In this document: one piece after another, positions 4,557 to 37,527 of the stretch
Layout of the letters: each line of letters opens with the position of its first letter
Position numbering within the stretch: position 1 is the first letter of the stretch
Assembly (NCBI GenBank): GCA_003158195.1
Contig: PMHP01000157.1
Location: 585-44,717 of the forward strand
Length of the DNA stretch: 44,133 bases
Source: Vulcanimicrobiota bacterium
Lineage (GTDB): Bacteria > Vulcanimicrobiota > Vulcanimicrobiia > Vulcanimicrobiales > Vulcanimicrobiaceae
Direction: 5' to 3'
Program-made: the position numbers and the translations under genes
The notes under the pieces: model-generated
What the model saw: the letters and a program-made list of their open reading frames with translations, nothing else
Databases searched by the model: none
What the model was told of the DNA's origin: nothing

Positions 4557-5753
4557 TCATGCGCGTACGCGTTCCGCGAGCCCTGCGAACGCGCGCGCGA
4601 GGTCTGCGATGATATCGGCTTCGTGCTCGATGCCGACCGAGATGCGCAGTGTCGCATCGCTGACGCCGAGCGCCTGGCGTGCTTGCGGTGTCAGCGGACG
4701 ATGCGAACTCACCGCGGGATAGCTTATTGTCGTCGCGACTTCGCCGAGGCTGTGGACGATCGCGATCGTCTCGAGACCGCGCAGGAACGGATCGACCGCC
4801 GCGGAGCCGCCGGCGAGATCGAAGGCGACGATGCCGCCGGTGCCGCTCGGGTAGAGCCGTGCGACGAGTTCGCGCTGCGCGGCATGCAGTGACGGATGAT
4901 GGACCGCGGCGACCTCGGGAACCGTAGAAAGATAACGCGCGACCGCCGCAGCGTTCCGGCTGTGGCGCTCCATCCGCAGCGCCAGCGTCCGCAAGCCGCG
5001 CAGAGCAAGCCACGCCTCGAAGTGCGGCATCGTGGCGCCGGTTCGGACCAAGCGGCCCCGGATCGCCTCGATGAGATCGCGCCGCCCGGCGACGACGCCG
5101 GCCCCGACGTCGCCATGGCCGCCCAAATACTTTCCGACGCTGTGGACCACGAGGTCGGCCCCAAAATCCAGCGGCCGGCAGAGCGCCGGCGTCGCGAACG
5201 TCGCGTCGACGATCAGCGCGGCGCCGGCATCATGCGCGAGCCGCGCCAGCGCCGGCAGGTCGGCAACGTTCATGAGCGGATTGGTCAGCGCCTCGACGTA
5301 CAACACGCCCGGCCGGAGGGAGGCAAGCGCCGCGGCGACCTCGCCGAGATTCTGCTGGTCGACGTATTCGACCCGAACGCCGGCTTTACGATAGTCGTTC
5401 TCAAGTAGGGCAAAGGTCCCGCCATACAGTTCCTGGGTAGCCAAAAGGGTCGCGCCGGGCGTCAGCGCGGTGCCGACCGCGGCGTGAATCGCCGACATCC
5501 CCGCAGCCGCCCCGGCCGCCGCTTCCGCACCTTCGAGCTCTGCGATCGCCGACTCGAACTGCGCGGCGTTGGGGCCGCCATAACGCCCGTAAACGGCGCC
5601 CTGCTTGACTCCCGCGTAGATCGCCTCGACATCCGCGAGGTCGGCAAACTCGTACGACGAGGCCTGAAAAAGAGGTGGGCTCGAAGCCCGGTTGAGCGGG
5701 ATCGCCAGCCTGCCCGCGTGGACGGCAGCGGTGTCGGGGTGGCGCTCGGACAA
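4557..5753 (-). CDS. PLP-dependent Cys/Met metabolism enzyme (cystathionine gamma-synthase/lyase type)
   Basis: A 398-residue fold-type I PLP enzyme, normal family length. The Schiff-base lysine is K208 in HSVGKYLGGHGD; the phosphate-binding segment is YGRYGGPN (55-62), and LYGGTF lies at 109-114. It acts in the cytoplasm on sulfur amino acids or O-acylhomoserine. Methionine gamma-lyases usually carry Cys in the LYGC position; here it is Gly, so a synthase or cystathionine lyase role is more likely than methionine degradation. It is transcribed alone, divergently from the esterase at 5907. The exact reaction is not decidable from sequence. Confidence 0.82.
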   Translation of the reverse strand: MSERHPDTAAVHAGRLAIPLNRASSPPLFQASSYEFADLADVEAIYAGVKQGAVYGRYGGPNAAQFESAIAELEGAEAAAGAAAGMSAIHAAVGTALTPGATLLATQELYGGTFALLENDYRKAGVRVEYVDQQNLGEVAAALASLRPGVLYVEALTNPLMNVADLPALARLAHDAGAALIVDATFATPALCRPLDFGADLVVHSVGKYLGGHGDVGAGVVAGRRDLIEAIRGRLVRTGATMPHFEAWLALRGLRTLALRMERHSRNAAAVARYLSTVPEVAAVHHPSLHAAQRELVARLYPSGTGGIVAFDLAGGSAAVDPFLRGLETIAIVHSLGEVATTISYPAVSSHRPLTPQARQALGVSDATLRISVGIEHEADIIADLARAFAGLAERVRA

Positions 5754-5906
5754 CGGATCTTCCCTTCTTCGACGGTGCGTTCACGGGGCTTATCCACATT
5801 CGGGCTCTTCGCGCCTGTGCAACATGTGGAAAGCTTAAGACGCTTTTCAACGGCGAGCGCGGCCTTCCGGGACATTCTGACATTCTTGCGAATCCGAAGC
5901 CCGCCG

Positions 5907-6860
5907 ATGCCACCCGAAAAGACTCCGCATCTCGACCCGGTCATCGCCCTTCTCCTGCGGGCACTGCCGGCGCGTGACGTCGATCCCAAAAGCCCCGAGC
6001 AGGTCCGCGCCGACTTTCGCCGGCTCACGAGATTCGCGCCGTATCGCGGTTCGGGCAAGGTGGCCGGCATAGAAGACTTCGCCTTGGACGGCGGGTTGCG
6101 CGCTCGCCTCTACCGGCCCGCGGCGGCGGGACCGGTCCCGACGGTCGTCTTCTTTCATGGCGGTGGATGGGTCGTCGGCGATCTCGACGGCTACGATGCT
6201 CAGTGCCGGCGCTTACGCGACCTCACCGGCGCCGCGATCCTGAGCACCGAGTACCGGCTCGCGCCCGAGGCGCCCTTTCCGGCTGCGGTCCAGGACTGTT
6301 TGAACGCGACGCGGTGGGCCGCACGCAACGTCGCGCGACTCGGCGGCGATGCTAGCCGGCTGGCGGTCGCCGGCGACAGCGCCGGAGCGAATCTCGCGAC
6401 GGTCGTCGCGCAAGCGCTGCGCGGCGAAGTTGCATTGCGCGCCCAACTGCTGCTCTATCCCGCGCTCGACTCCGTCGGTTTGCGTTCGGGTGAAGCGTCC
6501 GCACGATTTCCTTCGCACGCGCGCTATGCGAGCGGTTACTTCCTGACGCTGCGACGCATGAACTGGTACGCGGATCGCTACGTGCCGAACGAAGACGATC
6601 GCGCCGACCCGCGGGCCTCGCCGCTGCGCGCGCCGGAGTTCGCAGGTCTCGCACCGGCAGTGATCGCGACGGCCGGGTTCGATCCATTACGCGACGAGGG
6701 CCGCGCGTATGCGGCCGCTTTGCGCGCTGCGGGCATTGCGACGACGTACCTCGAGTTTGGATCGCTCGTGCACGGCTTCTTTGCGCTCGCATCGTTTTCG
6801 CCCGGCGCGCGGCGCGCGGCGCAGGCATGTTGTGCTGCATTTAAAAGCCTGCTCGAATGA
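5907..6860 (+). CDS. Alpha/beta hydrolase, HSL-family esterase/lipase
   Basis: A 317-residue protein of the hormone-sensitive-lipase group (Abhydrolase_3). The oxyanion-hole motif HGGGW begins at H84, nucleophile S158 is in GDSAGAN, the catalytic acid is D259 in GFDPLRDEG, and the catalytic base is H289 in VHGF. No signal peptide is visible, so it is probably cytoplasmic and acts on short- to medium-chain esters. The ATG at 5907 begins the family-like sequence; the open frame runs further upstream but that stretch looks non-coding. It overlaps the next gene by 4 nt (ATGA), suggesting co-translation with the glycosyltransferase-like gene. Confidence 0.88.
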   Translation: MPPEKTPHLDPVIALLLRALPARDVDPKSPEQVRADFRRLTRFAPYRGSGKVAGIEDFALDGGLRARLYRPAAAGPVPTVVFFHGGGWVVGDLDGYDAQCRRLRDLTGAAILSTEYRLAPEAPFPAAVQDCLNATRWAARNVARLGGDASRLAVAGDSAGANLATVVAQALRGEVALRAQLLLYPALDSVGLRSGEASARFPSHARYASGYFLTLRRMNWYADRYVPNEDDRADPRASPLRAPEFAGLAPAVIATAGFDPLRDEGRAYAAALRAAGIATTYLEFGSLVHGFFALASFSPGARRAAQACCAAFKSLLE

Positions 6861-8353
6861 AAGACCGAGTCGCGCTCGTGGTCGCGGCGCTTGCGGGCGC
6901 GCTGCATTTGGCGACCGCGAACCGCTACGACGTCTTCCGCGACGAACTGTACTTCATCGTCTGCGGGCGTCATCCGGCGTTCGGCTACGCCGATCAGCCG
7001 CCGCTCGTGCCGCTATTCGCCGCCGGGTTGTACGCGCTGGGCGCGCAAACGTGGCTGCTGCGCCTCCCGGCAATTTTGGCCGCGGCGGGACTCGCGGCTC
7101 TTACCGTCGCGTTCGTGCGCTTGCTCGGAGGCCGCGACGGCGCGGCCTGGATCGCCGGCATCGCGGTCGCCACCGCGCCGATGCTGATGGGCCTGACCTC
7201 GACGTTGAACACGACGGCCTGCGAGCCGTTGTGCTGGACCGCGATCGCATATCTGCTGGCGCGCGCCGTGTTGCGCGACGAGCGCCGCTCGCTCGTGTGG
7301 GCCGGCGTCGTCGCGGGGGTGACCATGGAGGTGAAGTACGCGTTGCCATTGTGGCTTGCGGCGCTCGCGATCGGTCTCTTGCTCACCCCCGAGCGGCGCA
7401 TCTTTGCGCGGCGCGAGCTGTGGATCGGGATCGCGCTCGCGACGGCGATCGCGTTACCGTCCGTCATCTGGCAAGCGCTCCACGGTTTTCCGTTCGCCGA
7501 ACTCGTTCACAACGCGCACCTCAAGGACCAACCCGCTTCGCCGCTCGGATTCGTGGCCAATCAGGTGCTCGTCATGAACCCGCTCTTCGCGCCGATTTGG
7601 CTTGCGGGCATCGCGGCGCCGTTTGCGTTTCGCGATCTGCGCGCGGCGCGATTCCTATCGGTCGCGTTCGCCGTCTGCGCGGTGGCGATCGTTGCCAGCC
7701 ATGGAAAAGACTACTACCTCACGCCCGCCTACCCGCCGCTTCTTGCGCTCGGCGCGATTGCGATCGAGCGGCTAATCCGCAACGCGTACGTCCGCGCTGT
7801 CTATCTCGGCGCCGCCCTCGTGCTCTCCGCCGCGATCGCGCCGCTGGCGTTGCCGATCCTCTCGCCGCCGGTGTTGCTTGCGTACGAGCGCGCGATCCAT
7901 CTCACCGCAAACGCGCAAGAACGGGCCGACGTCGGCAACGCGATGCCGTCGCTCTACTCCGATATGCTCGGCTGGCACGACTTCGTCCGCGAGGTCGGCA
8001 TGGCGTTCGACAAGCTTACCCCGGCGCAGCAGTCCGAGACGTCGATCCTTGTCGACAACTACGGTGAAGCGGCCGCGCTCGACATCTACGGGGCTCCCTA
8101 TCACCTCCCGCCCGCGCTCTCGGGACATAACCAATATTTCCTCTGGGGCCTGCGCGGCCAGCATCCCGTCGACGTGTTGCGGATCACGAGCGACGTTCCC
8201 AGTATGCGCCCCTACTGCGCGATCGTGCAACTGCTCGGCATCACGGGATCCACCTACGCTCGCTCGTTTGAAAACGGCAAGGCGATCGCGTTTTGCGTTC
8301 GCGTGCACCCGCCGCTCCAAACGCTTTGGCCGCTTGAAAAAATGTTTATCTGA
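6857..8353 (+). CDS. Glycosyltransferase family 39/ArnT-like membrane protein
   Basis: A 498-residue polytopic membrane protein with about ten hydrophobic segments, then a soluble C-terminal domain of about 130 residues. The N-terminal loop with YDVFRDELYF, followed by DQPPLVPL, is the acidic first-loop signature of PMT_2/ArnT-like glycosyltransferases that use polyprenyl-phosphate sugars. The reaction would be transfer of a sugar to a lipid, protein or glycan on the outer face of the inner membrane. It begins at ATG inside ATGA, overlapping the esterase stop. A second similar protein follows after one base. Donor and acceptor are unknown. Confidence 0.8.
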   Translation: MKDRVALVVAALAGALHLATANRYDVFRDELYFIVCGRHPAFGYADQPPLVPLFAAGLYALGAQTWLLRLPAILAAAGLAALTVAFVRLLGGRDGAAWIAGIAVATAPMLMGLTSTLNTTACEPLCWTAIAYLLARAVLRDERRSLVWAGVVAGVTMEVKYALPLWLAALAIGLLLTPERRIFARRELWIGIALATAIALPSVIWQALHGFPFAELVHNAHLKDQPASPLGFVANQVLVMNPLFAPIWLAGIAAPFAFRDLRAARFLSVAFAVCAVAIVASHGKDYYLTPAYPPLLALGAIAIERLIRNAYVRAVYLGAALVLSAAIAPLALPILSPPVLLAYERAIHLTANAQERADVGNAMPSLYSDMLGWHDFVREVGMAFDKLTPAQQSETSILVDNYGEAAALDIYGAPYHLPPALSGHNQYFLWGLRGQHPVDVLRITSDVPSMRPYCAIVQLLGITGSTYARSFENGKAIAFCVRVHPPLQTLWPLEKMFI

Positions 8354-8354
8354 A

Positions 8355-9974
8355 ATGCCACGCAGCTTGGATCGGCGATCCGAAGTCATTGCCCTCGCAT
8401 GTGCCGCGTTGTCGATCGTCGCGATCGGCTGGTCGCGATGTTACGATCCGTTTTCCGGAGACCAAGCGCTCTTTCTCATCGGCGCCGACAAATTGCATGC
8501 CGGCGGCGTGATGTATCGAGATTTCTGGGACATCAAGCAACCCGGGGTCTTCCTTTTCTTCCTCCTCGGAGGCGGGATCTTCGGTTTCGATCAGATCGGC
8601 GAACATGCGGCCGATCTCGTATGGCAGCTCGCATTCGCAGCCGTGCTCGTGTTCGCACTCCGTGCGTGCTTTGCAAGACAACAATTCGTGGCGGCGTTCG
8701 CTCCGATCGCCGTCATCGGCGCCTATTACGCGGGAAGTTCGTCATGGCACCTCATGCAAGTGGAGGAGCTTGTGGGCTTGCCGCTTTTCTGCTGTGCGTG
8801 GTTGCTCGTGGAAGCTCTTCGCACGTCGTCGCGAAAACTCGCGATCGCTTCCGGCGTTTGCGGCGGCATCGCACTCGTTTTCAAGCTCATCTTCTTGGTC
8901 ATTCTGGGCGGATTGGTTCTAGCCGCGCTTGTCGCCGCGCGCGCGACGGTATCGAAGAACGCCATGCGTGGAACGCTAGCGTCGTGGCTGGCGGGAATTC
9001 TTCTGCCCGTTTCGGTGGTCGTCGCTTACACGATCGTGCACGCTACCGAGGCCACGACGTTCGACACGACGTTCGTCGTTCCAATTCAAGTGTTCTTCAC
9101 GACGGAGATGCATGCGCCCCTCGCGCGACTCGCCGACAGCGCCGTACGATTCGTGCTGTACTTTCGAGGTCTCATCCTCCTGGGTCTTATCGGGCTCTTC
9201 GCCGCCGGCCGGATTTCGTCGCAAGCCAAGACGTGGAGGCTCGTCTGCATCGCATGGATCGTCGGCGACGTAATCGTCATCGCGATCCAGATATCGTCGT
9301 GGTGGCAATATCATTTCTTGCTGCTGATCCCGCCGTTTGGGATCCTCGCGACGATCGGGCTGGCGTACCTGGTTAGTAGCGGGCGAGCCGGGCTCAAGGG
9401 TGCCGTCGCGTCCCTCGTGGCTGCGGGTGTCGTCGCATACGTAGCAGTACCGTTGCCCCAAGGGGCGATCGGAACGCTCCTGCTCGTCGCTCGAGAACGG
9501 CCTTTCGAGTCCGCCGGTTCCCTCGAACGCTATCGCATCGCGTCGAACGGCGAGTACGCCGATGCGCTCGAAGACTCGGGGTTCGCAAGACGTCGCACGG
9601 CCGGAGCGACCGTCTATGTCTTCGGTAGTCCCCTGATCTACGTGGACTCGAACGCCCAACAAGCGCTCGCCATGAACAGCTGGGGGATCCAACTCTTCAC
9701 GCCGGCCCTCTGGAAACGAGCGGTTGCAGAGCTGTGCGTTGCCCGGCCCAAGTACGTCTTCGTCTTCGACCGTTTCTTGTGGCACTTGCGGACGGGCGAT
9801 CACGGCGCGACGATGAGTGTTCTTTCTCGCGACTACGCGCCGGCCGAACAGACGAAGGACGGCCAATGGTTCGTCCGCAACTCCGTTCGCCAATCTTCCT
9901 TTTGCGCGAGAACCAGCTTAGCGGCGACGTTTGCGGGAAGCGCTGCGCGAAGGAATCAATCTTTGGTTGCCTAA
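8355..9974 (+). CDS. Second GT39-like polytopic membrane glycosyltransferase
   Basis: A 539-residue membrane protein starting at ATG one base after the stop of the previous gene. The N-terminal helix is followed by CYDPFSGDQALF and then YRDFWDIKQPGVF, the periplasmic acidic loop and D-x-KQP motif seen in family 39/83-type transferases. About ten hydrophobic segments follow, then a C-terminal soluble domain from about residue 385. The tandem pair probably arose by old duplication or serves one glycosylation pathway. The last ~25 residues, rich in Ser/Arg, look poorly conserved. Confidence 0.72.
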   Translation: MPRSLDRRSEVIALACAALSIVAIGWSRCYDPFSGDQALFLIGADKLHAGGVMYRDFWDIKQPGVFLFFLLGGGIFGFDQIGEHAADLVWQLAFAAVLVFALRACFARQQFVAAFAPIAVIGAYYAGSSSWHLMQVEELVGLPLFCCAWLLVEALRTSSRKLAIASGVCGGIALVFKLIFLVILGGLVLAALVAARATVSKNAMRGTLASWLAGILLPVSVVVAYTIVHATEATTFDTTFVVPIQVFFTTEMHAPLARLADSAVRFVLYFRGLILLGLIGLFAAGRISSQAKTWRLVCIAWIVGDVIVIAIQISSWWQYHFLLLIPPFGILATIGLAYLVSSGRAGLKGAVASLVAAGVVAYVAVPLPQGAIGTLLLVARERPFESAGSLERYRIASNGEYADALEDSGFARRRTAGATVYVFGSPLIYVDSNAQQALAMNSWGIQLFTPALWKRAVAELCVARPKYVFVFDRFLWHLRTGDHGATMSVLSRDYAPAEQTKDGQWFVRNSVRQSSFCARTSLAATFAGSAARRNQSLVA

Positions 9975-9983
9975 CGGCGCGAC

Positions 9984-12005: not shown

Positions 12006-12776
12006 ATGCAGAGCGATATCAGCGAATCGTCCGTCTATACGGCTTTGCGACAAGAAATGACGCAAACGCTCTTCGCGTTTCGCCAATTGCTCATCGGCGA
12101 ATTAGCCGCATACGCGGCGCTCATCGGAGGCCTCCTTACGATAGCCGGCGCGAAAGACGTCTACGCTTTTACCTTTCCGGCGGTCGTGTTTATTTACGGG
12201 ATCATCGCCTTCCTGATCGTCACGACGACGGTTATCGGGCACACCTGGTTGGGTACGGTGTTTCGGCAAGGGTCGTACATTTTGGTGGCGTTCGAGCTAC
12301 CGCTCCTGCTAAGCAAAGGCGCGGGATCCAAGGACCGCGGCAAGCTCTGGATCATGGCGAATCGAGCTGAAGCTTTCCGTAAGGGACAACACTTCGCGGG
12401 ACGCAAGGTCAACCCAGGTACCGATGTCCAGTCGTTCGTCGTCCGTCAGATTGGCTTGTTCGTCCTTTCGAGCCTCATATTGGCGATCATCGTTCCCGCT
12501 CGCCGTCACGACTTTTTTGCATCGGGGCCATCCTTTGTCGACCGTCTGCTGATTGGTTTCGCCGTCGTCGTCGCTGTCGTAACGGTAGTCGCGCTGGTTC
12601 GTGAGTTCGTGAAATCGCGGAACACGCTGGCCGAGCACGTTCGAAGCTGGGTCGCTTACGTCTCAGATCGTAAAAAGTTTGACGACGCACTTTTGGAATC
12701 GTACGGAATCGACAAAGCGGCGCTCGAAAAAATGTATGGCGAACCACCAGCCGCTACGCAACAACAAAAGGTCTGA
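12006..12776 (+). CDS. Unrecognised integral membrane protein, four predicted helices
   Basis: A 256-residue protein that I do not recognise. Hydrophobic stretches lie near residues 28-47, 55-77, 147-165 and 177-199, in two hairpins joined by a basic loop. The N-terminus and the ~55-residue C-terminal tail are hydrophilic and probably cytoplasmic; the tail has alternating charge (ESYGIDKAALEKMYG). GAGGTAG, partly inside the previous stop region, serves as ribosome site for the ATG at 12006. The 3' end overlaps the convergent amidohydrolase gene by 23 bp. Confidence 0.75.
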   Translation: MQSDISESSVYTALRQEMTQTLFAFRQLLIGELAAYAALIGGLLTIAGAKDVYAFTFPAVVFIYGIIAFLIVTTTVIGHTWLGTVFRQGSYILVAFELPLLLSKGAGSKDRGKLWIMANRAEAFRKGQHFAGRKVNPGTDVQSFVVRQIGLFVLSSLILAIIVPARRHDFFASGPSFVDRLLIGFAVVVAVVTVVALVREFVKSRNTLAEHVRSWVAYVSDRKKFDDALLESYGIDKAALEKMYGEPPAATQQQKV

Positions 12777-13944
12777 GCGGCCGGCCGTTCGATGCGACGA
12801 ACGCGACGCGGCGCAGCGCGGCGATATCGCGCGTCGGGTCGCCGCTGACGGCTACGACGTCTGCTCGGGCACCAGGCCGCACGGCGCCGAGTTCTGCGCG
12901 TCCGAGGACGCGCGCGGCGGTTGAGGTCGCGGCGCGCAACGCCTCGATCGGCGCTAGGCCGTAGTCGACCAAGAGTTCGAGTTCGCGCGCGTTCTCGCCG
13001 TGCGGGAAAACGCCGATGTCGCTTCCGTTTGCGATCGTTACGCCGCTTGCAAGCGCACTAGCGAAGGCCTGGCGTTTTTGCGCTGCCGCCGGACCGTCCG
13101 GCGGAGCCTTGCGGTAAGCCCAAATCGCATCGTAGGCAGCAATGGTTGGCACGTACGCGACGCCGCGCTCGGCCATCAGCGCAAAGACTGCGGGCGTACC
13201 TTCGTTTCCATGTTCGATCGTTGCGACGCCGGCCAGCGCCGCGCGCCGCATCCCCTCGGCCGTGTTCGCATGTGCGGCGACCGGGCAACCGGAGTCGGCG
13301 GCGATGCGCACGATCAGGGTGAGATCGTCTTGCGAAAAGGCCGGGCGCGAGATGCCGCCCGGGCCATGGCGGCTGTCGGCGTAGACTTTTATCCATTCGG
13401 CGCCCCGCGAAATCTGACGGCGCACGACGGCATAGATCGACTCCGGGCCATCGACTTCGTCCGCGCCCTGCAGCACGCAACAATCGGGTACGAACCCGGC
13501 CGGACCGTAGAGGCTACGCGCGACGATCGCGCGGGTCACCGGTACGACGTGCGGTCCGAGGATCGTCCCTTCGTCGATCGCGCGGCGGAGGCCGACGTCG
13601 GCTTCGCCGGCGCCTTCGGTGCCGAGGTCGCGCACGGTCGTGAAGCCTGCTTCCAACGTGCGTTTTGCTGCAGCGACCGCGCGCGCGACGCGCAGCGCGA
13701 CATTGTCGCGCAGAATCTGATCGTCCCACGAGCGCACATCGTACGGAATTAACAGCAGGTGCGTGTGTAAATCGATCAGGCCCGGAAGCAACGTCGTCCC
13801 GGCAAGATCGACGATTTCGTCTGCTTCCGCTTCGTGGTTGTCCGGACCGGCGGCGACAATGCGCTCTCCCTCGATGCGAACCGCCCAACCCTCGTGGCAC
13901 CGTTCGCCGTCGAATACCGCGTCCGGCCGCAGAAGCATCGCCAT
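12754..13944 (-). CDS. Metal-dependent amidohydrolase (imidazolonepropionase/Xaa-Pro dipeptidase-like)
   Basis: A 396-residue amidohydrolase-superfamily enzyme. Metal-binding motifs appear in order: LIDLHTH (His 60 and 62), a candidate carboxylated lysine in EWIKVYADS, AAHANT, IEHGNEG and NGSDIGVF. It also has the N-terminal and C-terminal beta-sandwich expected of the family (PGARADVVAV near the end). It hydrolyses a C-N bond in a cyclic amide or dipeptide-like substrate in the cytoplasm. The chosen ATG (13944) lies 8 nt after the SDR stop; an ATG two codons later is also possible. It forms a pair with the SDR upstream. Confidence 0.85.
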   Translation of the reverse strand: MAMLLRPDAVFDGERCHEGWAVRIEGERIVAAGPDNHEAEADEIVDLAGTTLLPGLIDLHTHLLLIPYDVRSWDDQILRDNVALRVARAVAAAKRTLEAGFTTVRDLGTEGAGEADVGLRRAIDEGTILGPHVVPVTRAIVARSLYGPAGFVPDCCVLQGADEVDGPESIYAVVRRQISRGAEWIKVYADSRHGPGGISRPAFSQDDLTLIVRIAADSGCPVAAHANTAEGMRRAALAGVATIEHGNEGTPAVFALMAERGVAYVPTIAAYDAIWAYRKAPPDGPAAAQKRQAFASALASGVTIANGSDIGVFPHGENARELELLVDYGLAPIEALRAATSTAARVLGRAELGAVRPGARADVVAVSGDPTRDIAALRRVAFVASNGRPLRPFVVA

Positions 13945-13952
13945 AGCGGCGT

Positions 13953-14765
13953 CTACGTTCCCATCATCAGCGAAAACCACATCCCCGAACCGAGCAGGTT
14001 CGTACCGCCGTCGCAGACGAGCACGGTGCCGGTAATGTACGACGCAAGCGGAGAGGCCAAGAACGCCGCGACGCCACCGATGTCGTCGACGTGACCCAGC
14101 CGCCCGAGCGGCACGAGTTTGGCGACGTTCTCCTTCCCGCCACGCGCCGGCGCGAGCCGCCGCATTCCTTCGGTGTCGTCGATCGGCCCCGGGACGACCG
14201 AGTTCGAGCGGATGCCGTACTTGGCCCAATCGACGGCAAGATCCTTCATGAGCATGTCGACGCCGGCTTTCGCCGCGCCGACGTGCGCTTGCATCGGGTG
14301 CGGCGAGAATGCTTGACCGGCAGAGACAAAGACGATCGAACCCTTCGTCTCCTTCAGCTGCGGGAAGGCTGCGCGCGCCGCGTTGAACGATCCGAGCAGA
14401 TCGATGTCGATGACGGATTTGAAGCCGTTCGGGCTCAGCGCCTCGGCAGCTGCCGGAAAATTTCCGGCCGCTCCGCACACGAGGGTCGACATCGATCCAA
14501 GCGCGCCGCGAGCGCCCTCGATCGCACTTTCGAGCGCCGCGTAGTCGCGCACGTCGGCACTCTGCGCGAACACCTCGGCACCCAGTGCGCGCAGTTCGCC
14601 CGCCGCGCCGTCGAGCCGCTCCTGCGAGCGCCCGCAAATCGCGATCTTCGCACCGAGCGCGGCGAAACTTTTCGCGATGCCGAGGTTGATCCCGCTTCCG
14701 CCGCCGGTAACAAAGACGTGTTTTCCGGCAAAAAGATCCTTCGAAAAAACATCCGTGAGGGTCAT
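13953..14765 (-). CDS. Short-chain dehydrogenase resembling 2,4-dienoyl-CoA reductase
   Basis: A 270-residue SDR with nucleotide-binding motif VTGGGSGINLG. Instead of the canonical Tyr-x3-Lys it reads QAHVGAAKAGVD, keeping Lys but lacking Tyr. It also has AAGNFPAAAEALS and SVIDIDLLGSFN. These are features of the DECR/SPS19 branch, which reduces dienoyl-CoA with NADPH during oxidation of unsaturated fatty acids. ATG at 14765 is preferred over TTG at 14834 because it begins a normal SDR N-terminus. The next gene (amidohydrolase) starts 8 nt downstream. The reaction is a family inference. Confidence 0.82.
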   Translation of the reverse strand: MTLTDVFSKDLFAGKHVFVTGGGSGINLGIAKSFAALGAKIAICGRSQERLDGAAGELRALGAEVFAQSADVRDYAALESAIEGARGALGSMSTLVCGAAGNFPAAAEALSPNGFKSVIDIDLLGSFNAARAAFPQLKETKGSIVFVSAGQAFSPHPMQAHVGAAKAGVDMLMKDLAVDWAKYGIRSNSVVPGPIDDTEGMRRLAPARGGKENVAKLVPLGRLGHVDDIGGVAAFLASPLASYITGTVLVCDGGTNLLGSGMWFSLMMGT

Positions 14766-14902
14766 GTCGCTTGCTCTGCGCCGGATCGCTTCACCCCGCC
14801 TTCCGGCGGCAGGGCGATTGAGTATCCGTCCCAATTATGGGCCACGCTACGCCGGCCATCGACCGGAATCAAAAAGCTTCAACAGCTGCCGCTCTGAAGC
14901 TA

Positions 14903-15004
14903 TGTCACGAGCTGAGCTTGTCGGAGCGCCGACGGGACTTGGCCCTTGGCCTTGCACCGTCTGCCCTTCGACTGCGCGCCTGCGGCGCTTCGCTCAGGGT
15001 GACA
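14903..15004. repeat. Dispersed MITE/REP-like element, copy R3 (full length)
   Basis: About 102 bp from TGTCACGAGCTGAGC to GCTCAGGGTGACA, with internal hairpin GCGCC-TGC-GGCGC. The hairpin differs from R2 by compensating changes in the stem. The element forms the 3' end of the small gene at 14905-15285. Confidence 0.7.
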
Positions 15005-15285
15005 AGGCGGCGTTTGTGGTGAAAGGCTATCAACGTCTCGTTCGCTTCGTCGTAAGAAGCGCAACCATGCTGAACCCAGAGGGTCAGCGCATTTTTGAGC
15101 AACGCGCGTTCTTGAGTCGCACCGACTTGTTCGAGCGCTTTTCCCATCTCCCCTATTCGCGTTGGACCCTTGTTGCAAAACGTGAGCAGGTGCCCATCCA
15201 TCATGATGCTGCCGAGATATTCGTCGGCGTCGTAAACGACACGTTCGTCGCCGGACAGAGGGTCGGCAGCCGTTTGCGCATTCAA
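14905..15285 (-). CDS. Small uncharacterised protein with repeat-derived C-terminus
   Basis: A 126-residue protein. The core (EYLGSIMMDGHLLTFCN, then KALEQVGATQERALLKNAL and a segment up to HHKRRL) looks coded and faintly resembles DUF4375/DMP19-type proteins; that similarity is weak. The last ~35 residues (LSEAPQARSRRADGARPRAK and so on) are encoded entirely by repeat copy R3, so the native stop was probably lost on insertion. The only canonical start is TTG at 15285, yet protein-like sequence continues upstream to a TAG 25 codons earlier, so the 5' end may be damaged too. Real gene or recent pseudogene; undecided. Confidence 0.45.
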   Translation of the reverse strand: MNAQTAADPLSGDERVVYDADEYLGSIMMDGHLLTFCNKGPTRIGEMGKALEQVGATQERALLKNALTLWVQHGCASYDEANETLIAFHHKRRLVTLSEAPQARSRRADGARPRAKSRRRSDKLSS

Positions 15286-15425
15286 AACAGCCTCTGCGAG
15301 TGCGGCATCCTCGTCGGCGTCGAAGCGAGACCGCGATACGTGAAGGCGGCGCTACATGGCATTCGGCGTTCTAACGGCGACGACTGAGACCCTTTGCTCT
15401 CTCCCGCGTTAGTATCGGCCTTAGC

Positions 15426-17207
15426 CTAAATAAATGGCGGGGCTTGCGCGCGGCGGAGATCCTCGATGTCGCCGTCGCCGGCGATGACGCGTGCAACCGC
15501 ATCGCGGAGCGCTTTCGTCGCAATCGTATCGAAGGCGATGCCGGTCGCATGGGCGAGCCCCCCGAGGGTTGCCCGTTCGTCGGGTGCGTATGCTTCGAGA
15601 TTCGTCTTTTCGCCGCACGCGAGCACGCCGAGCAGCTCCCCGCGCACGATCATCGGGAACGCGATCTTGCCGCAGAAAGCGGGGCGTTCCACCTCTTCTG
15701 CGACTTCGTCGAGGTCGACCGCTTCCCCAGAGGCGCACATGCGCACGACCGCGGCGTCGTTGCGCGAAACCGGTGGCGCCGGCGAGATCGTAGCAACCTG
15801 GGCGACATAGGAGCCGTTTCCGTCGCGCAGATAGAGCGCTGCTCCGCCGGCCTTTGCGTGCCGTTCGAGTGCCGTGATGACGCGCGTCGCGAGGATTTTC
15901 GGATCGTCGACGTAGGCGGCCTCACGGGCGACCCGGCGCAGCGCCGCTTCGGCGCGATGGCGGTCGCGGAAAAACACGTTGTCGACAAATGAATCGACGC
16001 GCATGTGAATGCGTCCGAGCGAGACCCCGATGCCGAGCGCGACCAGCGCGCCGATCACCGCGCTCTGAACGTGACCGAGCGATGAAACGTACTTGCCGAG
16101 AACGAACTCGAGCAAGCTGAAGGCCGCAACGATGAGAGCGGAAATGATGCCGAAAACGAGCGCGCGATTGACGACAAACCCAATGTCGAGGAGCCGATGA
16201 CGCAAGATGGCATAGGCCGTGCCGAGTGGAATCGCGAGGATCGCTAGAACGAACGGTTCGACGACGAATTCGGTAACGCCCAATTGTTGCAGGATGGCCG
16301 CCACGATCAGGCCGCCAAGCCCGATGCCGGTTGAAACGGCGATCCAGCGGACGCGCTCGCGATCGGCCGGTTCAGCCTCGCGACTGCCGAGCGCAAATGC
16401 AGTCCCCAGCGCGACGATCGAGCCGGCTAAGAAGACGTTCATCAGCGCGCCGATCAGTGTCACAAAAGCGCCGCGCACGAGCCCGGCCCACGTCAATGCC
16501 AAGAGCCCGCCGACGATAACCGGTGCCGCGAAGATGATCGCGTCATTGAGGCGGGCGATTGTGCGGCGCGGACCGCCGGTGCTCGGCCGCGGAAAGAGCG
16601 TCGCGAAGCGAATTGCCTGGAGAATCGCAAAGGCTATGACGATCGGCTGCAGGACGGCGAGCACGACCGCGAGCGGAATCGGGTACCACGGCCATCGCGA
16701 GATCGTTCCGAACGCAAATGCGGCCAGAAATGTTGCCAGAGCGCGGGCCTCGGCGCGATCGGGGCGGCGGACAACGATCAACGCGGCGACGAGAAAAAAG
16801 ACGATGCGGATCGCCTGAATCGCGTAGACTGAGCTGTAGGCCGCGATCGCTGCTTCCCATGAAGGCGGCGCGGTCGCGGCAGCCCGAAGCGAGACGCGGC
16901 GATCGACTCCGCGCGCGTGCATGAGAAGTGTGAGCGGCGCGTTCGGCGGCGCACCGGGATAGAGCAGCAGAAAACGGCTCCGTATGTCGTCGACAGCCGG
17001 CACGATGCGATCCCCGGTCGCGAGGCCGGCGCGAGCCGCCGGGGAGTCCGGCTCGACGCTGGTAACGACGAACTCGTGTGGACCGTCGGCGCGAGCGCTT
17101 AGCCCGAAGTCTCCGCCCGGTCCCGCGTTCAAGATATCGCCGGCAGTCAGGCCGAGGGCGATTCCAATCGCGACGAGCGCCACGAAACGCCACAACCACG
17201 TGGGCAT
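15426..17207 (-). CDS. Membrane sensor with PDZ, multi-helix and GAF domains, no kinase domain
   Basis: A 593-residue protein. Order: N-terminal membrane helix (about 5-25); PDZ-like domain (about 30-105, with FVVTSVEPDSPAARAGLATG); about eight membrane helices (125-400) ending in the AYAILRHRLLDIGF segment common to bacterial multi-TM sensor kinases; linker FFRDRHRAEAALRRV; GAF domain (about 430-570). Related sensors continue into HisKA and HATPase domains, but this protein stops shortly after GAF with no histidine or ATP-binding box. It may pass a signal to a separate kinase or cyclase. No regulator gene is adjacent. Domain reading is confident; function is unknown. Confidence 0.78.
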   Translation of the reverse strand: MPTWLWRFVALVAIGIALGLTAGDILNAGPGGDFGLSARADGPHEFVVTSVEPDSPAARAGLATGDRIVPAVDDIRSRFLLLYPGAPPNAPLTLLMHARGVDRRVSLRAAATAPPSWEAAIAAYSSVYAIQAIRIVFFLVAALIVVRRPDRAEARALATFLAAFAFGTISRWPWYPIPLAVVLAVLQPIVIAFAILQAIRFATLFPRPSTGGPRRTIARLNDAIIFAAPVIVGGLLALTWAGLVRGAFVTLIGALMNVFLAGSIVALGTAFALGSREAEPADRERVRWIAVSTGIGLGGLIVAAILQQLGVTEFVVEPFVLAILAIPLGTAYAILRHRLLDIGFVVNRALVFGIISALIVAAFSLLEFVLGKYVSSLGHVQSAVIGALVALGIGVSLGRIHMRVDSFVDNVFFRDRHRAEAALRRVAREAAYVDDPKILATRVITALERHAKAGGAALYLRDGNGSYVAQVATISPAPPVSRNDAAVVRMCASGEAVDLDEVAEEVERPAFCGKIAFPMIVRGELLGVLACGEKTNLEAYAPDERATLGGLAHATGIAFDTIATKALRDAVARVIAGDGDIEDLRRAQAPPFI

Positions 17208-17255
17208 TGCCGGCTGCCCCCTTTCGTTAATGATGTTCTACGTCCGAACGCTCCA

Positions 17256-17300
17256 GGGCCCTGCGGGCCGGGGGCCCACGTCGCGTTGCGCAAGCGCGAC
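17256..17300. terminator. Two hairpins between the FMN-protein gene and the PDZ-GAF gene
   Basis: GGGCCC (17256-17261) pairs with GGGCCC (17272-17277), and GTCGCGTT (17280-17287) pairs with its near-complement ending at 17300. They lie directly downstream of the minus-strand gene ending at 17314. No clear U-tract follows, so a terminator role is tentative. Confidence 0.35.
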
Positions 17301-17313
17301 GAAAACCGTCATA

Positions 17314-17889
17314 TCAATTGCTTAGCGTCCCTGCGGCTAAACCGAGTTCGCCCAACTCCTCGAGCGTGTAACGCGGGGTAATGTGCTGTTGGCAATTCCA
17401 ATCGAAGCCCTCTACCGCAAACACGATCCCCCGCTCGATTCGCGGATCGTAACTTGGCACGGTAAGGCTTTCCAAGAGCTCTGCATCTTCCGCTGCTTCG
17501 ACGATGTGCGCATGAGCCAAGATCTTCAGGCGCGATTGCGAGGGGTAGTCCATGAGGAAGAGCGCGACGCGGTCGTTCGTCTCGAGATTTCCGACTGAGA
17601 TGAACTGCTTGTTCCCTGCGAGATCCGCGAACCCGATCGTACGCTCGTCGAGGACGCGCAAAAAGCCCTTCGGGCCGCCCCGGTGCTGCACGTACGGCCA
17701 GCCCGTCTCGGAGACAGTCGCGAGGTAGAAGCTGTCCCGCGATTCGATGAACTCTCGTTCCTGCGGGCCAAGCGTCTCGGCTGGACCGGCCTCCGCCATT
17801 CGCCGCGCATACGCGCGACGCGAACCAAAGCGCTCCTGAAGCGCTTGGGCGTGCGGGGTAAAGGCGATTTGGGCAAAGCGGGATGGCAT
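17314..17889 (-). CDS. Pyridoxamine 5'-phosphate oxidase-like FMN-binding protein
   Basis: A 191-residue split-beta-barrel flavoprotein homologue. The core from about residue 48 reads SRDSFYLATVSETGWPYVQHRGG, then FADLAGNKQFISVGNL, DRVALFLMDYP and LKILAHAHIV, the usual order in the PNPOx-related/general-stress-protein group. These proteins bind FMN, F420 or heme and reduce or oxidise small molecules. ATG at 17889 is preferred because GGAG sits 7 nt upstream and family sequence begins there. It is divergent from the ComM gene. The substrate is unknown and vitamin B6 synthesis should not be assumed. Confidence 0.82.
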   Translation of the reverse strand: MPSRFAQIAFTPHAQALQERFGSRRAYARRMAEAGPAETLGPQEREFIESRDSFYLATVSETGWPYVQHRGGPKGFLRVLDERTIGFADLAGNKQFISVGNLETNDRVALFLMDYPSQSRLKILAHAHIVEAAEDAELLESLTVPSYDPRIERGIVFAVEGFDWNCQQHITPRYTLEELGELGLAAGTLSN

Positions 17890-18004
17890 GGCGCTGCTCC
17901 GGAGACGGGTGTACCACGCATAACCTCCGACGGGTTGCGACTCGGCGCGCCGTAGCCCTTGCGACTCCCAGGCTCGGTCGCGATAACCAGGCCGGAGGAC
18001 TGCA

Positions 18005-19537
18005 GTGCTCGCTCTGGCACATTCGGCTGCGATGCTTGGCATCGACGGCTTCGTCGTTCGCGTCGAGGCGGATAGCGCTCCCGGGACGCCCGGGTTCGCC
18101 ATTATCGGGCTCCCCGACAGCGCGCTTCGTGAAGCGCGGGATCGCGTCCGCGCGGCCGTCATAAACTCCGGCTATCAGTTTCCGGCGGGACGCGTGCTCG
18201 TCAACCTCGCACCGGCGGACATCCGCAAAGTCGGGCCCGGCTTCGATCTTCCGATCGCGCTCGCGCTGCTCGCGATCGACGAACAGCTCGATACGCTCGC
18301 CCTCGGGCGTTTCGTTGCGCTCGGCGAACTAGCGCTCGACGGAACCCTGCGCGCGACCCGCGGCGTGCTGCCGATGACGATCGGGGCACGCAACGCCGGC
18401 TTTGACGCCCTCATCGTGCCGAGCGCGAATGCGTCCGAGGCCGCACTGGTCGACGGCGTGCGGATATATGCCGTCGATGCACTCCACGACGCGGTCGCGG
18501 TCGTGCTCGGGCACGGAGAGAAATACCATCACCGCCCGGGCGCGCCCCCGACCGAGGCGACGCCAAGCGCGCAGGGCGATTTCAGCGACGTGCGCGGGCA
18601 AAGTTCCGCGAAGCGCGCGCTCGAGATCGCGGCGGCCGGCGGTCACAATGCACTGTTGGTCGGGCCGCCGGGATGCGGCAAGACGATGCTCGCGCGCCGC
18701 TTGCCCTCGATCCTGCCGCAGATGACAGCGCACGAAGCCCTCGAGGTCACGAAGATCTATAGCGTCGCCGGTTTACTCGCGCGCAACGCCGGCATCGTCG
18801 GAACGAGACCATTTCGCGCGCCTCATCACACAATCTCGCAGGTCGCGCTCTGCGGCGGTGGTAGCAGCCCGCGACCCGGGGAGATCTCGCTCGCGCAAAA
18901 CGGCGTCCTATTCCTCGACGAGCTACCGGAATATTCGCGCGCGGCGCTCGAGGTTATGCGTCAGCCGCTTGAAGAGGGCACGGTCACGATCGCACGCGCC
19001 GCCGGAAGTTTCACGTATCCCGCGCGCTTCGCGCTGGTTGCTTCGATGAATCCGTGCCCGTGCGGATTTCGCGGCACGCGCACGAACGATTGCCGCTGCG
19101 ACGACGCGACCGTCGCGCGCTACGTAGCGAAGCTCTCGGGTCCATTGCTGGATCGAATCGACCTGCACATCGACGTCGCGCGCGTCCCTTTCGACGACAT
19201 GGTCGCGCGCGGCGTCGCCGAATCGTCGGCCACGATACGCGCGCGAGTCGAGGCCGCGCGCGCCGTGCAGCGCGAGCGCTATGCCGGGACTGCGTTTTAC
19301 ACGAACGCCGGCGTCGCCGGCAGCGCCGTCAGGCGCTTCTGTACGCTCGATTCCGGCGCGACGGAGTTGCTGCGCACCGCAGCTGCAAAAGGCTATCTCT
19401 CCGCGCGGGCGCTCGATCGAATCGCTCGGGTCGCGCGAACCATCGCCGATCTGGCGGGCGCGCCGACGGTCGATGCCGCGCACGTCGCCGAAGCAATCGG
19501 CTACCGTTCGCTCGAACGCCGCGGCCTTGCAGCATGA
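18005..19537 (+). CDS. comM: YifB/ComM family Mg-chelatase-like AAA+ ATPase
   Basis: A 510-residue protein with the three expected parts: N-terminal ChlI-type domain (GTPGFAIIGLPDSALREARDR), central AAA+ module and C-terminal Mg_chelatase_C domain. Walker A is VGPPGCGKT near residue 220, Walker B is GVLFLDELPE, and ASMNPCPCGF with a downstream CRCDD marks the cysteine-rich insert. ComM is a hexameric helicase that promotes branch migration during natural transformation. GTG at 18005 has GGAGG 6 nt upstream. Usual length is about 505, so the gene is intact. It is followed by a hairpin and a convergent secreted-protein gene. Confidence 0.95.
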   Translation: MLALAHSAAMLGIDGFVVRVEADSAPGTPGFAIIGLPDSALREARDRVRAAVINSGYQFPAGRVLVNLAPADIRKVGPGFDLPIALALLAIDEQLDTLALGRFVALGELALDGTLRATRGVLPMTIGARNAGFDALIVPSANASEAALVDGVRIYAVDALHDAVAVVLGHGEKYHHRPGAPPTEATPSAQGDFSDVRGQSSAKRALEIAAAGGHNALLVGPPGCGKTMLARRLPSILPQMTAHEALEVTKIYSVAGLLARNAGIVGTRPFRAPHHTISQVALCGGGSSPRPGEISLAQNGVLFLDELPEYSRAALEVMRQPLEEGTVTIARAAGSFTYPARFALVASMNPCPCGFRGTRTNDCRCDDATVARYVAKLSGPLLDRIDLHIDVARVPFDDMVARGVAESSATIRARVEAARAVQRERYAGTAFYTNAGVAGSAVRRFCTLDSGATELLRTAAAKGYLSARALDRIARVARTIADLAGAPTVDAAHVAEAIGYRSLERRGLAA

Positions 19538-19567
19538 ACCGCGCGCAGCGCCGCTTTGCGGCGGTTA
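19536..19567. repeat. 32-bp direct repeat, left copy
   Basis: Starts GAACCGCGCG and matches 20175-20206 at 28 of 32 positions by hand alignment. The two copies flank the secreted-protein gene. This one spans the ComM stop region and the stop of the secreted-protein gene. Confidence 0.5.
19549..19563. terminator. Hairpin between convergent comM and the secreted-protein gene
   Basis: CGCCGC-TTT-GCGGCG, a perfect 6-bp stem, 11 nt after the comM stop and immediately after the stop of the opposing gene. It could terminate both. No strong T-run follows on the plus strand. Confidence 0.4.
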
Positions 19568-20125
19568 GGGCAACCCGACCGTCACCGCGCCGAACTTCGA
19601 GAAGTCGATCGCTTCGCGCTCGTGCGGAGCGACCAGATCGAGATGATGGATGCCGTCGGCATCCTCATACAAGGTTGCTGTGACGCGGCCCACCGGTGCC
19701 GTCCAAGATCCGACGATGACGCGGGTCCCCAGGCCGCGCCAGAGTTCGATGTGATCGTTGCACGAGCCGTCCTTCGTCCCCGGCGCATACGCCGTCCAAG
19801 GCTCGAACGAGGAGAGCCCTGGCCCCGGCGGCGCGCCCATCAGGCGCATCGGGCCGCCGGCGGACCTCCGCCACATCTTGCTGCCGATGACGAACACTTC
19901 GTCTTGAGCGCTCGTCGAGTGGAGGCGGTCGGGCGAGACCACATCCACCGTCGTCGCAGCCGCCGTGCCGGGATCGATCACGGCCCGGAACGATTTCTGG
20001 GCGGCGATTTTAGCCCACTTTCTACGACAGAGATCGAACTGTTCCGAATCGGCGTGCGCGGGCGCCGAAAGCAGCGGAACGAACGCGCTCGCGGTAAGCA
20101 ATACGGCAAGGACGCTTCTTTGCAT
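19565..20125 (-). CDS. Exported protein of unknown function
   Basis: A 186-residue protein with a clear Sec signal peptide (MQRSVLAVLLTASAFVPLL, cleavage likely after APAHA). The mature part begins DSEQFDLCRRKWAKI. It has scattered beta-rich segments such as DEVFVIGSKMWRR, then GTRVIVGSWTAPVGRVTATLY and GIHHLDLVAP. It contains two Cys (in DLCRRK and GSCNDH), which could form a disulfide. I recognise no family. It is flanked by 32-bp direct repeats and is divergent from the lipid kinase gene. Confidence 0.75.
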   Translation of the reverse strand: MQRSVLAVLLTASAFVPLLSAPAHADSEQFDLCRRKWAKIAAQKSFRAVIDPGTAAATTVDVVSPDRLHSTSAQDEVFVIGSKMWRRSAGGPMRLMGAPPGPGLSSFEPWTAYAPGTKDGSCNDHIELWRGLGTRVIVGSWTAPVGRVTATLYEDADGIHHLDLVAPHEREAIDFSKFGAVTVGLP

Positions 20126-20174
20126 GCTCTCAAGTCTAGCAGAGTTTGCGAGAAATGCACTCACCGCCCGCCTC

Positions 20175-20206
20175 GAACCGCGCGTAGCGCGGCTGTGCGG
20201 CGGGTA
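20175..20206. repeat. 32-bp direct repeat, right copy
   Basis: Matches 19536-19567 at 28 of 32 positions. It contains the small hairpin CCGCGC-GTA-GCGCGG and ends on the first base of the lipid kinase start codon, so it also carries that gene's ribosome-binding region. Confidence 0.5.
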
Positions 20207-21111
20207 TGCTGACTCGGATGCGCGCCACACTTATCGTCAACGCCGGCTCGGGCCGTTCCGGCCGACGCAAGGCCGACGAACTCCCCGCGATGCTCGCGGC
20301 GCGCGGGATTCACCTCGATGGTTTCTGGGCGGTTGAAGACGAAGGCGAACTGCGCAAACGCGTCCAGCGCGCCGTGAAATTGGATGCGGACACCGTGATT
20401 GTCGGCGGCGGGGACGGCTCGATGACCACCGCCGTCGACGTGCTTGCGAAGCGCAGTAAGGTTCTCGGCGTGCTGCCGCTCGGCACCGGCAACAGCTTCG
20501 CGCGCACGATCGGCCTCGACGACGACCTCGCGGGCGCGATCGACGCACTGGTGGCTCGACGCATCGAGTGCGTCGACCTTGGAATCGTCGCCGGCACCTA
20601 CTTCGCGAACTTTGCGACGATCGGGCTATCGGCCGAGATCGCGGAAGAGGCATCGCGGCCGCTGAAGCGCGCGATCGGCGCGGCATCGTACGTCATCGCG
20701 GGGCTGTTGCCGTTCATGAGGGCCAAGCCGTTCCGCGCGACGATCGTCGTGGACGGCGAAAAAAACCGAATGAAGACACAGCAAATCGTCATTGCGAGCG
20801 GCCGCTATTTTGGGCATCAACCGATCGCCCCCGATGCGACGGCCGTCGACCACCGCCTCGCGTTCTTTACGACAACGGGCGTGTCGCACGCCGAAGTCGC
20901 ACGGATGTATCTCGCGATGGGACTCGGCGTGCAGGACAGCCTGCCCGACGCGATCGCGTTCTCGGCGCGCGAGATTCGCGTGAAGACGAAGCCGCGCCAG
21001 AAGATCAGCGTCGACGGCAATCGTCTCGGCAAAACCCCGGCGACCTTTCGCGTCGTGCCTCGGGCGCTCAACGTCATCGTCGGCCCGAGATTCGACGCGG
21101 TCAGTCGATGA
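20206..21111 (+). CDS. Diacylglycerol/lipid kinase, YegS/DagK family
   Basis: A 301-residue cytoplasmic or membrane-associated lipid kinase. The N-terminus has LIVNAGSGRSGRRK, the catalytic GGGDGSM lies near residue 68, and LPLGTGNSFA near residue 92 is the second family signature. The C-terminal half holds the beta-sandwich with ISVDGN. It phosphorylates diacylglycerol or a related lipid with ATP. ATG at 20206 or 20218 is possible. Its stop overlaps the PAP2 start (ATGA), pairing a lipid kinase with a lipid phosphatase in one transcript. Confidence 0.9.
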   Translation: MLTRMRATLIVNAGSGRSGRRKADELPAMLAARGIHLDGFWAVEDEGELRKRVQRAVKLDADTVIVGGGDGSMTTAVDVLAKRSKVLGVLPLGTGNSFARTIGLDDDLAGAIDALVARRIECVDLGIVAGTYFANFATIGLSAEIAEEASRPLKRAIGAASYVIAGLLPFMRAKPFRATIVVDGEKNRMKTQQIVIASGRYFGHQPIAPDATAVDHRLAFFTTTGVSHAEVARMYLAMGLGVQDSLPDAIAFSAREIRVKTKPRQKISVDGNRLGKTPATFRVVPRALNVIVGPRFDAVSR

Positions 21112-36909: not shown

Positions 36910-37527
36910 TTACAGGAGGCCGCGTTGTTGGGCGATTGCGACGGCTTGGGCGCGGTTGCCGGCGCCTAAGCGCGCGAGGATCTCGCCGACGTGGAACTTG
37001 ACGGTGCGCTCGGCGATGCCGAGCCGCGCCGCGATGGCTTTGTTTGCGAGGCCGTCGGCGAGCAGTTTGAGGATCTCGCGCTCGCGTTCGGTAATCCGCT
37101 GGTGGCGCGGCGCGCGCATCGCTTCGAGGGCTTGCGCTGCAATCGTCGCATCCATGCGCGCACGGCCTGCGGCGACGGCACGCACCGTTTCGAGCAACTC
37201 GTCGCTTGCGGTGCCCTTGATGACGTACGAGTCGGCGCCGCGCGAGAGTGCCGTGCCGACGCGCTCTTCGCCCGCGTACGCCGAGAAAATCACGACGCGC
37301 GTACCCGGCGACACCGTCTTGATCTTGCCGATCGCTTCGAGCCCGCTTTGGTCGGGCAATTCCAAATCGAGCAGAAGCACGTCGGGGCGCTCCCGTTCGG
37401 CCAGCGCGATCCCCTCGCCCGCCGTGCCGGCCGCTCCGACGACCTGAACGTCGCCGGCATCGCCGAGGGTCGCGACGATGCCGTCCCGCACGATCGGGTG
37501 GTCGTCGACGACCGCAACGCGGATCAT
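36910..37527 (-). CDS. NarL/LuxR-type response regulator, third gene of the hemQ operon
   Basis: A 205-residue two-component regulator. Receiver domain: acidic pair D8/D9 in VVDDHP, phosphoacceptor D54 in LLLDLELPD, and conserved Lys in SYVIKGT. C-terminal GerE helix-turn-helix: ITEREREILKLLADGLANKA, then IAERTVKFHV and LARLG. Phosphorylation by the adjacent kinase would drive dimerisation and DNA binding. It overlaps the kinase stop by 4 nt (ATGA). Target genes are not evident here. Confidence 0.94.
   Translation of the reverse strand: MIRVAVVDDHPIVRDGIVATLGDAGDVQVVGAAGTAGEGIALAERERPDVLLLDLELPDQSGLEAIGKIKTVSPGTRVVIFSAYAGEERVGTALSRGADSYVIKGTASDELLETVRAVAAGRARMDATIAAQALEAMRAPRHQRITEREREILKLLADGLANKAIAARLGIAERTVKFHVGEILARLGAGNRAQAVAIAQQRGLL

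Follow-up and report, generated by a model that had tools for sequence, protein, structure and literature searches.

The window, a 44,133-nucleotide stretch of DNA from a Vulcanimicrobiota bacterium, contains a gene for a membrane receptor that has the layout of the input half of the histidine kinase ComP and that stops at the place of the kinase. The kinase-less ComP-type receptor family to which its product belongs is real and is widespread in its class. What is new is the kinase-less form of a layout that is already known, and no description of such a family was found among the papers listed by searches of open-access full texts.

Layout and topology of the window protein

The gene (15426..17207, minus strand, as are all of the receptor features given below) is an open reading frame of 593 amino acids with an ATG start and a third-position GC content of 0.758, preceded by a probable ribosome-binding stretch, AAGGGGG (17217..17223), inferred from the upstream sequence. 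Its product consists of a first transmembrane (TM) helix, a PDZ domain, nine more TM helices, a GAF domain and a tail, and then a stop codon, which confirms the description in the initial annotation of a sensor without kinase output; a Pfam scan with E values up to 1 reveals no HisKA or HATPase domain. Pfam likewise finds no peptidase domain and, unlike in the membrane-bound one-component regulators, no DNA-binding domain in the protein's own chain.

TM helix 1 (residues 3-27; 17127..17201) is placed by a hydropathy peak at position 17 of a 52-row family alignment, A1, and by a helix at residues 3-27 of a low-confidence structural model. It is followed by the predicted periplasmic PDZ domain (residues ~31-115; 16863..17117), which carries the loop G32-D-F-G35 and which is recognized both by the Pfam model PDZ_6 (residues 47-69, 29 bits against a cut-off of 27) and by a family profile comparison with DegP, RseP and DegS. 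TM helices 2-10 (residues ~117-400; 16008..16859) are assigned from hydropathy and loop charges on A1 and include the cytosolic loop motif RLLDIGFVVNRA (residues 338-349; 16161..16196), whose columns are near-invariant and which is common to the kinase homologues, as aligned with the kinase pair A4; residues R338, D341, F344 and R348 of this segment, to which the initial annotation had already pointed, are retained in 49-51 of the 52 rows. A linker from TM10 (residues 401-435; 15903..16007), the most conserved region of the family, leads into the cytosolic GAF domain (residues ~436-560; 15528..15902), for which the Pfam match extends over residues 439-558 with 28.4 bits against a cut-off of 22.4. 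The last 33 residues (561-593; 15429..15527) form a non-conserved C-terminal tail, lowest in identity, at the place of the kinase.

Hydropathy on A1 gives ten TM segments, with peaks at 17, 136, 165, 191, 229, 264, 297, 326, 358 and 391, when the one- and two-residue fragments around 306-337 are merged and one short segment inside the GAF domain is omitted. Ten long helices are also present in the TM region of the low-confidence predicted structure (AlphaFold2 with two sequences, mean pLDDT 39.0), and the earlier estimate of about eight helices was too low. The PDZ domain sits between peaks 17 and 136, that is, in the TM1-TM2 loop. The mean number of basic residues in A1 is 1.5 before TM1; for the loops TM2-3, TM4-5 and TM6-7 it is 2.5, 3.3 and 3.3, but it is low in the loops TM3-4 (0.2), TM5-6 (0.6) and TM9-10 (0.9); this count covers the resolved loops, which the two flanking TM8 are not. 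Because basic residues alternate across the resolved loops, the PDZ domain is predicted to lie outside and the GAF domain inside.

The family profile matches the DegP, RseP and DegS chains across the PDZ domain, with a best E value of 7.2e-11, and by sequence type the PDZ of the window protein is of the DegP/RseP, HtrA-type; those three are proteases, whereas the window protein has no peptidase domain. Across the family the loop tends to read G-x-[FYLW]-G: of the 52 rows, 36 have G32, 45 agree at position 34 and 43 have G35. This conservation is compatible with a putative binding of C-termini, and so with the proposal in the initial annotation that the PDZ domain may sense the ends of periplasmic proteins.

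The same arrangement of ten TM helices with a PDZ domain after TM1 is known from Bacillus ComP. In the portions of PMC9620489 that describe it, BaComP has ten predicted TM helices with both ends inside, an 85-residue PDZ-like loop between TM1 and TM2, and a cytosolic alpha/beta part of ~155 residues after the TM helices. ComP, compared here by its description and not by alignment, as L133 and L134 are below, continues to HisKA and HATPase_c domains, whereas the window protein stops. A survey of PDZ proteins (PMC6411480) has ComP among the non-protease PDZ families, and GAF domains are absent from its main text. A further likeness is to the XrtA/PEP-CTERM histidine kinase PrsK (TIGR02916), of which positions 2-395 match window residues 127-508 (E 1.8e-7, NCBIfam); the match, which scores 30.1 bits where the cut-off is 300, covers the TM region and most of the GAF domain but not the PDZ, and the window protein lacks the kinase.

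Distribution and common end point of the family

With the single protein as the query, members turn up in 65 of 98 genomes, its own genome counted. The A1 profile matches, at E 1e-40 or better, 98 of the 113 genomes in the taxonomic families f1 and f3 (87 of 99 in f1, 11 of 14 in f3) and none of the 36 remaining genomes of the phylum (0 of 4 in f2, 0 of 32 in other families), with nine candidates scored per genome and the rows of A1 partly drawn from these same genomes. Families f1 and f3 are two families of one class, of the Candidatus Eremiobacterota type. A set of 24 chosen genomes yields 113 matches at E 1e-30, spread over 18 of them, and copy numbers reach 25 in G009 (22 of them stand-alone), 13 in G025 and nine each in G030 and G071. 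The window's own genome has three members, the window gene, L035, which is cut by a contig end, and L034 on contig C218; the closest relative of the window protein, L033, is 80% identical to it. Many members, such as L037 and L190, have no PDZ or GAF domain above the Pfam cut-off and were assigned by the profile alone. A tree of the TM9-GAF columns (122 rows) was rooted at its midpoint because the kinase outgroup dropped out with too few aligned columns.

In genomes of genus g19, three to five receptor genes, contig-end pieces included, stand in tandem (L098, L100, L101, L102); L098 and L100 each have three full genes plus cut ones at the contig ends, and L101 has four plus one cut. Two members are split into two frames (L043 in G017, 6609-8386, and L119 in G012, 5241-6976) and are either broken genes or products of sequencing errors. 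A search of plasmids gave no match.

The end point of the window protein is shared by nearly all of its relatives. The fetched loci contain 164 distinct members, of which 147 span the module, reaching from profile position 70 or lower to 540 or higher. The median extension of these 147 beyond the match is 9 residues, and 144 of them stop no more than 60 residues past the module. The 17 non-spanning members are fusions (L078, L094, L095, L114, L115), split or cut genes, and genes with short or divergent ends (L045, L061, L116, L190). The three exceptions with more than 60 residues are two true fusions to a BTAD domain (L040 and L113) and an assembly gap (L036); in L036 an S74 chaperone domain seems to follow, but this fusion was rejected, as a run of unknown bases bridges two genes. 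Fusions are over-represented among the 164 members because loci were chosen from the best matches and, deliberately, from long open frames.

All but one of the 113 matches were read in the DNA, and the remaining one (G012:C5:37657) has a 593-aa frame. Open frames of at least 780 aa belong to 12 of them, six of which are true fusions, while in the other six (L034, L037, L039, L041, L116, L117) the extra length is all on the 5′ side and the frame stops no more than 57 residues past the match. Pfam finds no HisKA or HATPase_c domain in any of these 12, nor in L190, which continues for 74 residues past its match. A local truncation or frameshift of a kinase gene in the window was rejected, as an unrelated DMP19-like gene lies 140 bases past the receptor's stop codon, and no kinase remnant was seen by eye in three frames 3′ of it. 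In the locus of the 80% relative (L044) the receptor ends at the same place, give or take one residue, with an opposite-strand abhydrolase gene 13 bases further on. Relatives in which a kinase follows in frame, with the truncation confined to the window, were not found among the members read. The small DMP19-like gene directly downstream (14905-15285, minus strand; E 6.9e-9) is overlapped by a plus-strand open reading frame that a simple gene caller favoured.

Kinase-bearing homologues and natural fusions

All of the homologues found that do have a kinase belong to another family of the phylum, f13. A search of 31 genomes with the TM part of one of them, L133, returns seven strong matches, each of them in f13, and eight weak matches in f1 or f3, all within the present receptor family and including the window protein. 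HATPase_c is above the cut-off in five of the seven f13 homologues (L133, L134, L210, L211, L212), and the next gene is in each case a Response_reg-LuxR regulator, recognized by Pfam for L210, L211 and L212 and by eye for L133 and L134. A profile of L133 and L134 aligns with positions 89-570 of A1 (hhalign probability 97.1, E 5.2e-11), the R-L-x-D-I-G motif included. Because these distant homologues with HATPase_c exist, the receptor module is the input half of a ComP-type kinase. Within the phylum, as far as sequence comparison goes, the module is kinase-bound in one family (f13) and kinase-free in the window's class. The other two f13 homologues, both of 654 aa (L213, 2217-4181, plus strand; L214, 1816-3780, minus strand), have no kinase domain above the Pfam cut-off, one having a trace of HisKA_3 below it and the other nothing; they are either divergent kinases or another kinase-less branch.

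In the window's class it is with transcriptional and STAND outputs that the module, or its GAF end, is fused. Six of the 113 matches in the 24 genomes are fusions, none of them to a kinase: two are to winged helix-turn-helix (wHTH)-BTAD parts, three to STAND NTPases and one to a GGDEF-STAND combination. The BTAD fusions, L040 (G012, f1) and L113 (G071, f3), match the profile over its full length and then continue for more than 700 residues to a terminal BTAD domain, which scores 22.3 and 31.2 bits respectively (cut-off 22.1); the winged helix is below its cut-off of 26.2 in both (18.5 and 24.3 bits). Their extra parts resemble each other (E 2.2e-78), and in the TM9-GAF tree the two group with a support of only 0.21. 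In the STAND fusions L094 and L095 (G009), L114 (G025) and L078 (G072) the last two TM helices and the GAF domain precede the NTPase, for which NB-ARC is above the cut-off in three; L095 (20.2 bits, cut-off 23.5) was assigned to the group because it resembles L078 (E 2.2e-133). All four, L078 included, form one clade with a support of 1.0 that extends across both taxonomic families, and because of this single clade they may represent one event. The 1388-aa product of L115 (G009, 5812-9978, plus strand) has a PDZ domain, TM helices, a GAF domain, a GGDEF domain (125.9 bits) and a STAND-like part resembling L078 (E 5.1e-33), and so joins a ComP-type input to a diguanylate cyclase domain.

STAND homologues are themselves numerous in some of these genomes, with at least 24 at E 1e-20 in G000 (46 of 54 candidates scored), 24 in G014 and 14 in G009. 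The multiplied STAND NTPases (G000, G014; L145, L146, L150, L156, L158) differ in their N-terminal domains, among them a class III cyclase (L146, and also at L078), a helix-turn-helix (L150) and a TIR domain (L145). Because other STAND proteins have a cyclase, helix-turn-helix or TIR domain at that place, the two TM helices and GAF domain that precede the STAND part in the fusions may serve as an anchor or an effector and not as a receptor that feeds it. At the L078 locus, a single case, a cyclase-STAND gene and the gene of a stand-alone receptor are arranged divergently, and the 2TM-GAF-STAND fusion lies two genes on.

Possible partners of the receptor

The signal is probably passed to another protein, because the sensor has no kinase and the family is multiplied to more than 20 copies in some genomes. 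We slightly favour the explanation that the window protein is a ComP-type receptor without catalytic output, one member of a large family, which acts in trans on a separate effector, perhaps of the STAND/SARP type. A signal from outside or from the membrane would be sensed by the PDZ domain and membrane bundle and relayed to the GAF domain by the conserved loop and linker, and the face of the GAF domain would act on a separate cytosolic effector, such that many receptors with differing input parts might share few effectors. The earlier proposal of a stand-alone sensor with a signalling partner holds in its first part, the kinase-less form being the rule among spanning members, while no partner was identified.

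That such an effector would more likely be a STAND/SARP-type regulator than a histidine kinase is suggested by the natural fusions, as a lead only. Ten of 106 receptors have a STAND gene within 10 kb, against ~5.4 expected, but six of these ten belong to G009, where copies are clustered, and within 5 kb there are 4 against 3.1 expected; for BTAD the 10-kb figure is 1 against 2.9 expected. These expectations are rough, as they presuppose uniform placement and take no account of contig ends or of clustering. The 106 receptors of this set are the 113 matches without the six fusions and the second piece of a split gene, and 25 of the 106 BTAD rows (23 of G092 and two inside fusions) were left out. 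Across the 24 genomes the number of receptors correlates at best weakly with that of STAND homologues (Spearman coefficient 0.40, p 0.054; 0.33, p 0.13, without G092) and does not follow that of BTAD homologues (0.07).

The alternative that the receptor serves as the input subunit of histidine kinases whose genes lie elsewhere, switching the kinase in trans as NreA does NreB, is possible if somewhat unlikely. As far as the relevant part of PMC8139620 describes it, NreA is a nitrate-binding staphylococcal GAF protein that acts on its effector in trans, and by analogy the window protein may do likewise with its GAF sensor; NreA, however, is single-copy with a named kinase, whereas the window family has a PDZ domain, ten TM helices, many copies and no kinase gene alongside. 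The homology of the module to kinase input halves speaks for a kinase in trans, and the 27 HATPase_c matches in G000 count against our preferred explanation in the same way. The window itself also has a compact pair of genes for a LuxR-type response regulator and a GAF-HisKA_3-HATPase_c kinase (36910-38441, minus strand), but this is ~20 kb from the receptor, and the regulator (36910-37527) is the nearest one identified among the window genes scanned, so the initial remark that there is no adjacent regulator stands. The seven genes scanned around the receptor (within 12754-21111) contain no two-component domain, its neighbours being PNPOx, DMP19-like, SDR, amidohydrolase and YifB genes.

Other receptors present the same picture. 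If anything, HATPase_c genes are scarcer beside them than chance placement would predict: in the six genomes with complete lists (127 HATPase_c places), none is within 3 kb of the 66 stand-alone receptors where ~3.8 were expected, 2 are within 5 kb (5.7 expected), 3 within 10 kb (10.4) and 11 within 20 kb (19.8), the expectations being rough values for uniform placement. Nor does the number of HATPase_c genes track that of receptors (Spearman 0.09, 24 genomes), and no kinase fusion is present among the 113 matches. A scan of immediate neighbours covered 117 of 119 (those under 1300 aa, two being left out), and because none of the best 25 of 97 neighbour families listed is a two-component family, any such family has at most one neighbour.

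Two candidates from the neighbourhoods were rejected as partners. Alpha/beta hydrolases are 7 of the 117 immediate neighbours and have no consistent position. A DUF1858-like protein follows the receptor on the same strand in nine loci, with gaps of -32 to 52 bases, but 29 of the 30 genomes searched have it, among them five (G004, G011, G027, G061, G065) without a receptor at E 1e-30. The domain name is a weak one: one of the three proteins scanned matched, with 22.6 bits where the cut-off is 32.2. One strong match to this protein is found in nearly every genome of the class searched, and it has a GCSNC motif and lies near genes that by eye are RapZ-like and YvcK-like (L053, L054, L055, L056, L057, L058, L059, L061, L062).

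It is quite unlikely that the receptor has no downstream partner and acts at the membrane itself, for example as a ten-helix transporter or enzyme gated by PDZ and GAF domains. The ten TM helices and the lack of any linked partner found would agree with this, as would a match of residues 258-326 to a Na+/H+ antiporter subunit model (E 0.031), which is probably hydrophobic chance. Against it, the homologues are kinase inputs, and the mean pairwise identity of TM2-8 (0.20) is below that of every other of the seven regions of A1 but the tail (0.156, the lowest). The linker has the highest value (0.427), followed by the motif with TM9-10 (0.39) and the GAF domain (0.33), and the N-terminus with TM1 (0.29) and the PDZ domain (0.26) are among the less conserved. 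Shared downstream partners would lead to just such a conserved inner face alongside varied sensor parts, although a structural constraint of the GAF fold would also produce it.

Comparison with the 80%-identical L033 indicates that the window gene is under purifying selection, because dN is 0.123 and dS 0.454 (dN/dS ~0.27); of the regions compared, the linker and GAF domain (residues 401-560) have the lowest dN, 0.077 (dN/dS ~0.15), against 0.207 for the PDZ domain. A decaying kinase, that is, a truncated paralogue being lost, might agree with the broken members such as the G017 copy L043 and the G012 copy L119 and with the absence, from the 15 kb surrounding the 80% relative (L044), of a counterpart to any other window gene, but it is barely credible, being contradicted by these selection data and by the end point common to 144 of 147 members.

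Taken further, a receptor that acts in trans on a separate effector would make the ComP input module GPCR-like, with more than 20 receptors in some genomes, of variable sensor parts and conserved cytosolic face and none with an enzyme of its own, converging on a few shared STAND/SARP-type regulators in place of two-component kinases; we offer this extension as speculation that is unlikely as it stands. Bacterial membrane sensors usually contain an output domain or adjoin a gene for one, and a conserved, strongly multiplied receptor family with neither suggests a signalling route that is missed by surveys that count kinases. The question that it raises is what the GAF face binds, and the BTAD and STAND regulators seen in the fusions are the first candidates.
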